DNA from: Olsenella uli
GTDB lineage: Bacteria; Actinomycetota; Coriobacteriia; Coriobacteriales; Atopobiaceae
Assembly: GCF_016899935.1 (NCBI RefSeq)
Contig: NZ_JACJJK010000002.1
Coordinates: 186,001 to 250,000, forward strand
DNA: 64,000 nucleotides
Direction of reading: 5' to 3'
Under the pieces are notes generated by a model. It was not told where the DNA came from, did not search any database, and saw only the letters and a list, made by a program, of their open reading frames with translations. A program made the position numbers and the translations under genes. This document shows positions 6,219 to 10,445 of the stretch, piece by piece. The first letter of the stretch is position 1. Every line of letters begins with the position of its first letter.

Positions 6219-7223
6219 CTAGAGGCGCGCGACGCTCTGGCGTTCCACGAACGTCGTGGAGAGGTGCACCACGCTCGTGTAGCTGCGTGGCTCGCGCATC
6301 CGGTCGACGAGCGTGCGCACCGCGAGCTCGCCCATCTCGCGGTTGGGGACGCGCATCGTGGAGAGCGGCGGGGTCGAGATGCTCGCGAAGGAGAGGTCGT
6401 CGAAGCCGAACATCGAGACGTCGTCCGGGACGCGGACGCCCCACTCCGTCATGGCGCGCATGCAGCCGAGCGCCATGATGTCGTTCTCGACGAAGAAGGC
6501 GGTGGGCAGCGCGGGGTTGGTCGAGAGCCAGGAGCGCATCGACTCGTAGGCGGTGTGGACCGTCGTCCCCACCTCCACGCGAAAGTCCGGGTTGGCGGTG
6601 AGGTTGGCCTCGCGCATGGCGCGCCGGTAGCCGCGCTCGCGCAGCGGGAAGTTCTTGATGCGGTACGACCCCGCGATGTAGCCGATCTCGCGGTGGCCCA
6701 TGTCGATGAGGTGGCTCACCGCGCGGAAGGCGGAGTTCTCGTTGGAGGTGACGATGCTGTCCAGGAAGAGATGGTCGCTCCAGCCGTCCACGACCACGAG
6801 CGGGACCTCGGACCCCCGGAAGAGGTCGTAGTCCTCCTCGGCCATCTCGGTGCCCAGCAGGACCACCGCGCTGGCGGACTCGTGCGTGAGCTCGCTGGCC
6901 TGGAGCGCGGCGGTCTGCCTGTCGGAGAGCTCGACGGTCGTGAAGATCGTGCTCATGTCCTGGGCGCTCGCCGCGCGCTCGACGCCCTCGATCACGCCGG
7001 TGTGAAACGTTCCCTCGTCCAGGATCAGGCCGGTCTTGCGCGCCAGGACAAAGTTGACGTGCGTGACGCGGCTCGGGCGGTCGTAGCCGAGCTCGTGGGC
7101 GGCGCGCATGATGAGGGCGGCCGTGTCCTTGTTCACGCCGCGTTTATGGTTGAGTGCGTTCGAGACCGTGGCGGGCGAGAAGCCCGTCTTCCTGCTGATC
7201 TCACGAACCCCCACGTTTCTCAT
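6219..7223 (-). CDS. LacI/GalR family transcriptional regulator
   Basis: A 334-residue repressor: an N-terminal LacI-type HTH and hinge (VREISRKTGFSPATVSNALN) followed by a periplasmic-binding-protein-like sensor domain (GHREIGYIAG, DDVSMFGFDD). The length matches the family. It probably binds its own upstream palindrome at 7270-7285. It lies downstream of xfp and the arabinose genes on the same strand but is separated from them by the repeat array, so control of sugar genes is plausible but unproven. Confidence 0.9.
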   Translation of the reverse strand: MRNVGVREISRKTGFSPATVSNALNHKRGVNKDTAALIMRAAHELGYDRPSRVTHVNFVLARKTGLILDEGTFHTGVIEGVERAASAQDMSTIFTTVELSDRQTAALQASELTHESASAVVLLGTEMAEEDYDLFRGSEVPLVVVDGWSDHLFLDSIVTSNENSAFRAVSHLIDMGHREIGYIAGSYRIKNFPLRERGYRRAMREANLTANPDFRVEVGTTVHTAYESMRSWLSTNPALPTAFFVENDIMALGCMRAMTEWGVRVPDDVSMFGFDDLSFASISTPPLSTMRVPNREMGELAVRTLVDRMREPRSYTSVVHLSTTFVERQSVARL

Positions 7224-7289: not shown

Positions 7290-7815
7290 CGACAAGAACC
7301 TGTTTTCGTCAGCCGGTTCCGCCAACGGCCGCCCGCACCCGAATTCCCCACCCGTGTCGCGCAGCCCTTCCGAGAACCGCCGCCCTTGTCGCCAGCCCTT
7401 CCAAGAAAACGCGCCCCCTGTCCCGACCCACTCTACGAATCGCCGCCCTTGTCGCGAGGCGTTCCAGGAAAAGCTGACCTTGTACCGACCGCTTCCCGGA
7501 ATCGCCGCCCTTGTTCCGGACAACTCTAGGAATCGTCACCCTTGGCCCAGGCAACTCTAAGAATCGCCAACCTTGCGCAACCGCCGTCTCCTACGAATGC
7601 GCAAGGTCGCCGTTTCTTAGAACACCTTGCGACAAGGGCGCCATTTCCCGGAAGCGGCCGGAACAAGGTCGGCAATTCCTGGACGGCACTGGAACAAGGG
7701 CGCGCTTTCTCGGAGCGCCCTGCGACAAGGGCGGCGATTCCCGGGGCCGCCCGGAACAAGGTCGGCGATTCGTAGAGTGGGTCGGGACAAGGTCGGCGTT
7801 TCCCGGAAGTCCCCC
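7290..7815. repeat. array of ~31 bp degenerate units in two opposed halves
   Basis: This gene-free stretch holds about 15 units of roughly 31 bp. In the right half (about 7600-7815) each unit reads ACAAGG(G/T)CGGCGATTCCnGG followed by about 10 variable bases. In the left half (about 7290-7590) the units are the reverse complement, with CCGCCCTTGT cores. One unit is exactly repeated in inverted orientation: 27 bases at 7419-7445 equal the reverse complement of 7763-7789. Open frames here only reflect the repetition (recurrent GRRF and GTRSAI peptides) and I do not call them genes. There is no adjacent cas or transposase gene. Confidence 0.8.
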
Positions 7816-7861
7816 GCCCCAGCCCCGCCCCTCGGTCGACGACTTTTCGGCGTACGCAGCC

Positions 7862-7935
7862 GGCCCGGCCGGTCCTTCTCGCCCAGCGACTTTTGCGCGC
7901 AGCGCAATGAGCTGGGGAGAAGGACCGGCCGGGCC
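7862..7935 (-). terminator. long hairpin downstream of xfp
   Basis: Arms at 7862-7887 and 7911-7935 pair over about 25 bp with a single bulge. The loop itself contains a small hairpin (TTGCGC/GCGCAA). It lies just past the xfp stop and probably ends that transcript, though no clear U-tract follows. Confidence 0.55.
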
Positions 7936-7961: not shown

Positions 7962-10445
7962 CTACTCGTTGTCGCCCGCGGTCATCTGCGTGGCGCTCAC
8001 GGCGTCGTCGGCGTCGGAGGCGTCACGCCACTTCCAGTCGGTGAACGCCGGGTGGTCGTAGCCGTTGTCGACGGCGAACTGGAAGGCGTCGAGACGGAAC
8101 TGCTCCCACTCCGCGATCTGGTCGGCCCACTTCTCGGCGTCGACCATGCGCAGCGCGTCGGCGGCCAGCGCCCAGCGGTCCATGTCGTTCACGCGGACCA
8201 TGTCGAACGGCGTGGTCGTGGAGCCCTGCTCCTTGTAGCCGTGGACGTTGAAGTTGTCGTGGTTCGGACGACCCCAGATGAGGCGGCGGATTGTGCCGGG
8301 GTACGCGTGGAACGCAAAGAGGACGGGCTTGTCGGCCGTGAAGAGCTCGACGAACTTCTCGTCGGACATGGCGCGGTCGTTCTCGGAGGCGTTTTGGATG
8401 CTGAGCAGATCGACGACGTTGACCAGGCGCACCTTGACGCCGAGCTTGTCGAGCAGGTCGAGCGCGGCCATGGCCTCGCCGGTGGGGACGTCGCCGCAGC
8501 AGGCGAGCACGACGTCGGGCTCCTCGCCGTCGGCGGTGTTGGAGGCCCACTTCCACTCGGCGGCACCGGCGGCGAGCTCCTCACGCGCCTCGTCGAGCGT
8601 GAGCCACGTCGGCGCGGGCTGCTTGCCGGCGAAGATCGCGTTCACGCAGTTGGTGGACTTGTAGGCGCGCTCGGCGACGGCCAGCAGCAGGTTGGCGTCG
8701 GCCGGGTAGTAGATGTTCACCACGTGGTCGTTGTTGAAGTTCTTGTTGAGAAGAACGTCGACGAAGCCGGGGTCCTGGTGGGAGAAGCCGTTGTGGTCCT
8801 GGCGCCAGACGTGGCTGGAGAGCAGCATGTTGAGGCCGGAGATCGGAGCACGCCAGTCAATGTGGCGCACGGTCGCCTCGAGCCACTTGCAGTGCTGGTT
8901 GACCATGGAGTCGACAATGTGGACGAACGACTCGTAGGAGCTCCAGAGGCCGTTGCGACCAGTGAGGATGTAGCCCTCGAGCAGGCCCTCGCACTGGTGC
9001 TCGGAGAGCTGCTCGATAATGTTGCCGACGGGCGAGAGGTGCTCGTCGTTGGCGGGGTCGTCGTAGTCGCCCTCGCCGACGCCGAACCACTGCTTGTCCG
9101 TCACCTGGTAGGACGGCTGCAGGCGGTTGGAGGCCGTCTCGTCCGGGCCGAAGATGCGGAAGGACTCGCGGTTGTTGTTGATGAGCTCGGCCGTGTACTC
9201 GCCGAGGACGCGCGTGGCCTCCACGGCGCCGAAGCCGTGGCCCTTCTCGGCGACCGGCACCTCGTACTTGCGGGTGTCGGGCAGGGTGAGCTCGTTGCGG
9301 ATCAGGCCGCCGTTGGCGTTGGGGTTGGCGCCGATGCGCAGCTCGCCCTTGGGCATCCAGTCGTTGACCTCGGGACGGATGGCGCCCTTCTCGTCAAAGA
9401 GCTCCTCGGGCTTGTAGGACTCCATCCAGCCCTTGAGGACCTGGAAGTGGGCCTCGGTGTCGCGCGCGGAGGCCAGCGGCACCTGGTGCGCGCGCCAGGA
9501 GCCCTCGGTCTTCTTGCCGTCGATCATCTTGGGGCATGTCCAGCCCTTGGGGGTGCGGAAGACGATCATCGGGTAGAACGGGCGCGAGGCCTCGCCGGCG
9601 GCGGCGCGACGCTTGATGTCGCAGATCTCGTCGAAGACGGCCTCGAGCAGCGCCGCGAAGCGACGGTGGATCGAGGAGTGGTCCTCGTCGTCGAAGCCGG
9701 CGACGAAGTTGTAGGGGTGGTAGCCCATGCCACGGAAGAACTCGTCGCGCTCGGCGTCGGAGATGCGGGCGAGGATCGTGGGGTTGGCGATCTTGTAGCC
9801 GTTGAGGTGCAGGATCGGCAGGACGATGCCGTCGGTCAGCGGGTCCATGAACTTGTTGGTCTGCCAGGACGTGGCGAGCGGGCCCGTCTCGGCCTCGCCG
9901 TCGCCCACGACGGCCACCGCGAGCAGGCTCGGGTTGTCGAGCACCGCGCCGTAGGCGTGGGAGAGCGTGTAGCCGAGCTCGCCGCCCTCGTGGATGGAGC
10001 CGGGGGTCTCGGGCGCGTAGTGGCTGGGGATGCCGCCGGGGTAGGAGAACTGGCGGAAGAACTTCTGGAGGCCGGCCTCGTCGTCGGTGATGTCGGGGCG
10101 CACCTCGCGGTAGGTGCCGTCAAGCAGGCTCTGCGCGGTGCCGGCCGGGCCGCCGTGACCGGGGCCCATCAGGAAGATCGCGTTCTGCTGGTGGTCGGCG
10201 ATGAGGCGGTTCACGTGACCAAAGAGGAAGTTGATGCCCGGCGTGGTGCCCCAGTGGCCCACGAGGCGGTGCTTGACGTCCTCGCGCGAGAAGCCCTCGC
10301 GCATGAGCGGGTTGGAGCGGAGGTAAATCTGGCCCACGGAGAGGTAGTTCGCGGTGCGCCAGTAGCGGTCGACGCCCTTGAGCTCCTCCTCGGAGACGGG
10401 GCCCTCCATCTTCTTCCACGGGGTTCCGATGACGGGGTTTGCCAT
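7962..10445 (-). CDS. xfp: xylulose-5-phosphate/fructose-6-phosphate phosphoketolase
   Basis: An 827-residue thiamine-diphosphate enzyme of usual family length, starting [10 protein letters not shown]. The phosphoketolase signatures [10 protein letters not shown] and the TPP-binding GDGEAETGP are present, followed by the XFP C-terminal domain. It cleaves xylulose-5-P (or fructose-6-P) with phosphate to acetyl-P plus glyceraldehyde-3-P (or erythrose-4-P), giving ATP through acetate kinase. The ATG at 10445 has an AAGGGAC site; a longer in-frame reading from 10484 is less likely. It lies downstream of araD on the same strand with its own 199-bp leader containing TGTTTA repeats, so it probably has its own promoter and completes arabinose catabolism. 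Confidence 0.96.

Follow-up and report, generated by a model that had tools for sequence, protein, structure and literature searches.

Mirror-symmetric arrays of helically phased, directional DNA sites in intergenic gaps of Olsenella-like genomes: candidate docking arrays for an oligomerizing protein

The window, a stretch of 64,000 nucleotides from an Olsenella uli assembly (GCF_016899935.1, contig NZ_JACJJK010000002.1), harbors between a LacI-family regulator gene and the phosphoketolase gene xfp a non-coding array of 31-bp units, arranged in two opposed arms around a 24-bp core. This array is confirmed to be one of at least 38 in the same genome (that of a gut bacterium, Atopobiaceae/Olsenella-like, 2.1 Mb in 131 contigs; hereafter G000), which makes the observation larger than was first noted from the window alone. 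The best explanation, to which we assign a probability of about 0.6, is that the arrays are docking arrays for an oligomerizing and fast-evolving putative DNA-binding protein. No description of such arrays was found in the open-access literature, and we know of no described bacterial repeat class that combines a polarity fixed by the center and spacing by whole helical turns with a presence at tens of loci per genome, with units particular to each species, and with orthologous positions whose interiors have been replaced.

Searching the window array against its own genome gave 103 matches, which at most places lie on both strands, and these places were then scanned with an iterated position weight matrix (PWM). 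At least 38 arrays comprising 383 units were recovered in G000, and a two-unit sequence model finds additional places beyond those scanned. The units occur beyond chance: in the shuffled control, which the sequence-only reading had asked for with regard to GC bias, block-shuffled loci gave no PWM match. The unit consensus, RCAAGGKCGGCGATTCYYRGA, is an asymmetric site of ~22 bp, after which come ~10 bases that vary and close with YGSR; nearly invariant among the G000 units are C2, A3, T14, T15, G20 and A21, and mean unit identity is 0.58 to 0.62. The arrays contain 6 to 25 sites. All 35 simple arrays show a single switch from minus to plus units, always with the same polarity (log10 probability of -65 under random orientation), and the three compound arrays consist of this same minus-to-plus module in three repeated copies.

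Neighboring units of the same arm lie 31 bp apart in 272 of 296 cases, and the linkers between the ~22-bp sites measure 9 or 19 bp. The core, measured from the 5' end of the innermost unit of one arm to that of the other, spans 24-25 bp at 37 of the 44 centers of G000 (exactly 24 bp at 33), the remaining lengths being 13, 14, 35, 45, 56, 57 or 76 bp. For the cores outside 24-25 bp, taken from the 31-bp type and from a 41-bp type of related species (n = 22), the best period is 10.50 bp (R = 0.95, Rayleigh p ~2e-9). Together with the 31- and 41-bp spacings, this period indicates that the distances are quantized in helical turns. Directional sites at whole helical turns, as in a phased multi-site protein array of the iteron or BldC kind, are found with spacings of 31, 41 and 42 bp and with cores of 3, 13-14 and 24-25 bp.

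The window array spans 7359-7817 and consists of seven minus and seven plus units of 31 bp around the core at 7577-7600. The left arm, on the minus strand, comprises from the outside inwards units -7 (7359-7389; self-comparison and PWM), -6 (7391-7421; degenerate, recognized by self-comparison and below the PWM threshold), -5 (7422-7452), -4 (7453-7483), -3 (7484-7514), -2 (7515-7545) and the innermost -1 (7546-7576); the last five are found by both consensus match and PWM, and units -5 and -3 carry the 16-base core ACAAGGGCGGCGATTC exactly. The right arm, on the plus strand, runs from the innermost unit +1 (7601-7631) through +2 (7632-7662), +3 (7663-7693), +4 (7694-7724), +5 (7725-7755) and +6 (7756-7786) to the outermost +7 (7787-7817), all recognized by the PWM, with +5 and +6, in which the core is exact, also found by consensus match. 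A possible eighth outer unit of the left arm (7327-7357, minus strand), read by eye as a degenerate remnant below the PWM threshold, would extend the left edge to 7327 and bring the count to the ~15 first noted. The sequence-only reading had placed ~15 degenerate units of ~31 bp at 7290-7815, half of them in each orientation and meeting near 7600. The unit count, the period and the orientations (minus at 7359-7576, plus at 7601-7817) agree with the present analysis, but the leftmost ~40-70 bp of that interval are ordinary upstream sequence of the lacI gene, so that the true span runs from ~7327 or 7359 to 7817.

Comparison of the window with itself, the check proposed beforehand, shows direct repeats to either side of ~7590, spaced 31 bp, as well as inverted repeats that link the two sides, and Tandem Repeats Finder returns a period of 31. 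If up to three mismatches are allowed, the consensus ACAAGGKCGGCGATTC matches the window 15 times, and 12 of these matches fall inside the array; the expectation is 1.28 +/- 1.22, and none of 100 shuffles reached 15. An exact inverted duplicate of 27 bp, reported earlier, is present in the sequence (7419-7445, minus strand; 7763-7789, plus strand). Its copies are symmetric about 7604, as was stated, but this point is not the center of the array, which lies at 7588.5; since the two centers are offset by half a unit, the copies are not a mirror pair.

All 38 arrays of G000 are intergenic, 11 in convergent, 8 in divergent and 19 in tandem gaps, and many begin only a few bases from a stop codon. 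Their flanking genes, inspected by eye, are mostly unrelated housekeeping genes with no shared theme. In the array-poor genomes (G022, G006, and G013, G265 and G070), the neighbors are sugar-transport, ABC and metabolic cassettes, with no common DNA-binding gene. The gap of the window array has, as first described, no associated protein gene: its only neighbors are the LacI-family regulator (6219-7223, minus strand; PF00356, PF13377), whose 5' end faces the array, and xfp (7962-10445, minus strand; PF09364, PF03894, PF09363), whose 3' end faces it, both identified by domain matches. The array had no match in phages, plasmids or viral contigs.

Relatives also carry similar arrays, contrary to the possibility, raised with the first description, that none would. 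The 31-bp type is abundant in G000, G004 (Olsenella sp. An270, Atopobiaceae), G014 and G023; two arrays are present in G022, and the search for 31- and 41-type arrays found one in G013, split at contig ends. The 41-bp type occurs in G041 and G003, with two arrays in G006, and the sister unit of these three genomes, RGAAGGTCGSCGATTCCGGGAC, is repeated every 41 bp, sometimes 31 bp, around cores of 3, 13-14 or 24 bp. In a tree of mfd, the species rich in arrays, whether of the 31- or the 41-bp type, belong to one clade (support 100/100), which also takes in species where 31- and 41-type units were not detected. Outside the genus, only probable contaminants or chance matches were obtained. Two contigs of G265, a member of another family, probably represent assembly contamination: C163, of 3.5 kb (L084), matches a locus of G041 at 94-97% identity, and the matches on C155 score like those of G023. 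The single weak match in G070 is probably due to chance.

The positions of the arrays are conserved between species to a larger extent than their units. At least 18 of the 28 arrays of G004 are bordered, on one side or both, by sequence that matches a flank of a G000 array (a script tally gave 21, three of which rest on weak or ambiguous matches). Units with an identity of at least 0.74 make up 23% in orthologous G000/G004 arrays and 18% in non-orthologous ones, hardly a difference from this control, and the units at the orthologous G004 loci have been replaced almost entirely. In near-identical copies of one array, the difference amounts to exactly one 41-bp unit. The same layout is also built from other units. 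For example, the 3' end of mfd is followed by 31-type arrays in G004, G014 and G022, and in G019 by an array of TGCCAYAACCCSGGATTGTTAAGC at 41-42 bp, a unit that forms ~25 arrays genome-wide in G019 (counted as places). From two further genomes of the genus the evidence is limited to one or two arrays apiece: in G043 a CGGATTCCTAAC-type unit recurs every 40-42 bp and forms two arrays, and in G045 a locus that carries a 31-type array in G023 holds 12 units of GGTACAnCnGnCnGnnTTTCTCGGC spaced 42 bp. The occurrence of different units in the same layout, sometimes at the same locus, indicates that the architecture is shared and the site sequence lineage-specific.

The observations establish the sites with their spacing and polarity, their distribution over the genome, the orthologous positions, the turnover of units and the lack of co-variation between arms; from these we infer binding by a protein, its multimerization and a role in chromosome organization. 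Each unit would be one asymmetric candidate site of ~22 bp for a putative protein that binds double-stranded DNA, and copies of the protein would lie side by side on one face of the helix, with a site every 31 bp (three turns), or every 41 bp (four turns, and again the same face) in the sister species. Opposed arms around a core of 3, 13-14 or 24-25 bp would then yield a two-armed, dyad-symmetric nucleoprotein row. Whole units are gained and lost in phase. Some 40 such rows per genome, kept in intergenic gaps, could represent a chromosome-wide docking or organizing system. Given the number of rows, the presence of all gene orientations and the mostly housekeeping neighbors, such a system is a better fit than one that regulates a few promoters. 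The protein and its sites probably co-evolve quickly, since the site sequence diverged between species while the layout stays. If a single protein does bind the arrays, they would reveal a lineage-specific system of chromosome organization or recombination, with a DNA specificity that evolves at unusual speed.

Several observations weigh against docking arrays. No cognate protein was found, and none adjoins the arrays among the flanking genes examined. The presence of arrays in only some species could reflect dispensability. Those cores that measure 45-76 bp may in fact be shorter, an innermost unit having gone unrecognized, and the independent core states would then really be three (3, 13-14 and 24-25 bp). 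A weak dyad correlation exists at innermost positions 1, 4 and 8 and at core position 1 (z of 2.1 to 3.1). Finally, the folding energy of the window array as RNA is extreme (z = -11.2), which taken alone is compatible with a structural RNA or a cruciform.

Among the other explanations, the one that survives best, though unlikely, is that paired arrays recombine, by a dedicated recombinase or by homologous recombination, and that gene cassettes enter, leave and cross species as array-bounded blocks, a behavior of the integron or pdif kind. In G022, which has two arrays only, the 6.6 kb between them, a sugar-transport cassette, are 97.9% identical to G004, against 87% for the next stretch outside; this identity begins within array 1 and stops ~20 bp short of array 2, on whose far side mfd is G011-like up to the array edge. 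Two arrays of G006 flank a 2.5-kb ABC/FtsX cassette that is 91-93% identical to G012 and G020, whereas the cassette is absent from G041, which has one array there. A single array of G000, located between cutC and a HAD gene, corresponds to an array-gene-array arrangement in G004. The enclosed gene (L104, 3215-4498) codes for 427 amino acids with an S1CSD-TOTE-2 domain (PF22707), whose name refers to conflict systems. These comparisons suggest recombination at or between arrays, but they are three cases only, met in passing and not by systematic search. Moreover, by our estimate arrays in G000 are not more clustered than random (~4 neighbors within 5 kb observed, ~3.6 expected), the core varies in length as a crossover site would not tolerate, the fast turnover of array interiors blurs the breakpoints, and long inverted repeats recombine regardless. 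Cassette exchange may be what the docking arrays mainly serve, or a side effect of them. A broader proposal, which we advance tentatively, would combine both in a genus-wide system: one fast-evolving oligomerizing protein per species would occupy ~40 phased mirror arrays, its recognition sequence rewritten between species while loci and architecture stay, and the arrays would also serve as boundaries of cassette exchange between species.

It is improbable that a long imperfect hairpin RNA or a DNA cruciform is the functional object, with the arm consensus shared for base pairing. The strong folding potential and the weak dyad correlation given above would favor it, but the former is expected, because the arms are inverted copies of one consensus. 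Mirror units -k/+k show no greater similarity (0.573 for the innermost) than do units taken from different arrays (0.562), nor is pairing at variable positions more frequent than between unrelated arrays. Within units no co-varying stem was found: the strongest coupling is at positions 18-19, jointly CG or TA (mutual information 0.42), and this CYRG step, which lies at a local dyad, is the only self-complementary one. In addition, the constant polarity in 35 of 35 arrays is not needed for pairing, 8 of the 38 arrays lie in divergent gaps, and every Rfam match is under the gathering score. A hairpin RNA was dismissed on the lack of arm co-variation and of Rfam matches above threshold. The term palindromic, used at first for the window array, is apt in that the arms share a consensus; without base-by-base co-variation between them, the array is a mirror of oriented sites and not a conserved hairpin. 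This lack, together with the asymmetry of the ~22-bp unit, favors protein sites on double-stranded DNA, as docking arrays would require, over an RNA hairpin.

A role of the arrays as operators, insulators or terminators of the flanking genes appears very doubtful. Their confinement to intergenic gaps, often close to a stop codon, would agree with local control of transcription, but every gene orientation occurs, including the 11 convergent gaps, the flanking genes are mostly unrelated housekeeping genes, and the lacI-xfp pair is present in G006 and G005 without an array in the gap. Least credible is a mobile repeat spreading by transposition, of the kind of repetitive extragenic palindromes (REP), bacterial interspersed mosaic elements (BIME) or miniature inverted-repeat transposable elements (MITE): there are dozens of dispersed intergenic copies, and Y1 transposases, mostly of the size of REP-associated tyrosine transposases (RAYT), are present in 28 of the 31 genomes of the genus, yet none of 20 inspected Y1 transposase genes adjoins an array (most adjoin other short palindromes), G004 and G019 are array-rich without such a transposase, the window array has no match elsewhere above 72% identity, so that there are no recent copies, and most G004 arrays are at loci orthologous between the two species, as described above.

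Docking arrays can also be set against known systems that they resemble in part. With REP/BIME they share dispersed intergenic clusters of units in opposite orientations, but the REP/BIME unit is a hairpin of 20-40 nt with a cognate RAYT, whereas the array unit is an asymmetric site without a hairpin stem, with a polarity directed away from one center and helical spacing, and the RAYT-like genes of the genus adjoin palindromes unrelated to the arrays. MITEs and other palindromic mini-elements are likewise non-coding, dispersed and of inverted symmetry, but they have fixed ends, whereas the arrays have a fixed center and variable ends, no near-identical copies, and positions kept between species. 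Direct repeats at regular intervals, separated by sequence that varies, recall clustered regularly interspaced short palindromic repeats (CRISPR), from which the low unit identity, the 9- or 19-bp linkers and the two opposed arms set the arrays apart; no Cas protein was recognized by eye among the flanking genes of the 38 arrays, the rest of the genome not having been searched for cas. The distinction from both CRISPR and REP/BIME, already drawn from the window, is therefore upheld. Iterons and plasmid parC centromeres are also phased arrays of a directional protein site, but here ~40 copies per chromosome are mirror-symmetric and no adjacent rep or par gene was seen. A precedent for multimers on direct repeats is BldC, which binds head-to-tail and cooperatively on direct repeats of varying number (PMC5859096), whereas the sites of the present arrays are GC-rich, ~22 bp long and repeated every 31 or 41 bp, and they form two opposed arms at each of ~40 loci.

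Other repeats were noted in the same genomes. The Y1_Tnp genes (L154-L173; in G000, C49:160631-160966) are often flanked by private short palindromes, for example TTAATTGGGGACAGTCCCCAATTAACA and GTGCAAAAGGGACAGGCACTTTTGCAC, and make up a diverse RAYT/REP set within one genus. In the gaps at the mfd 3' end (L118, L119, L120, L130 and L133), small palindromic elements have a similar interior around GCAGGYAGATG and outer inverted units that differ by species (GACTTTTGCACGAGC, AGGTTATGCGC). Beside the ABC/FtsX cassette of G020 and G012 (L175, L176), palindromes of TCTGATATCCGGAAATCAGA represent a separate repeat family, and in the G006 cassette a RelB-like domain is fused to the N-terminus of an ABC ATPase (L080, 2685-3575). 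In several genes flanking arrays, GGCGAGAAGAAC at the start codon apparently encodes an initial M/V-x-EKN, and this string is also found as an arm of dispersed hairpins. Finally, the hairpin at the 3' end of xfp in the window (7862-7935; TTCTCGCC...GCGACTTTTGCGCGCAGCGCAATGAGC...GGAGAAGG) is a member of a dispersed repeat that occurs genus-wide.
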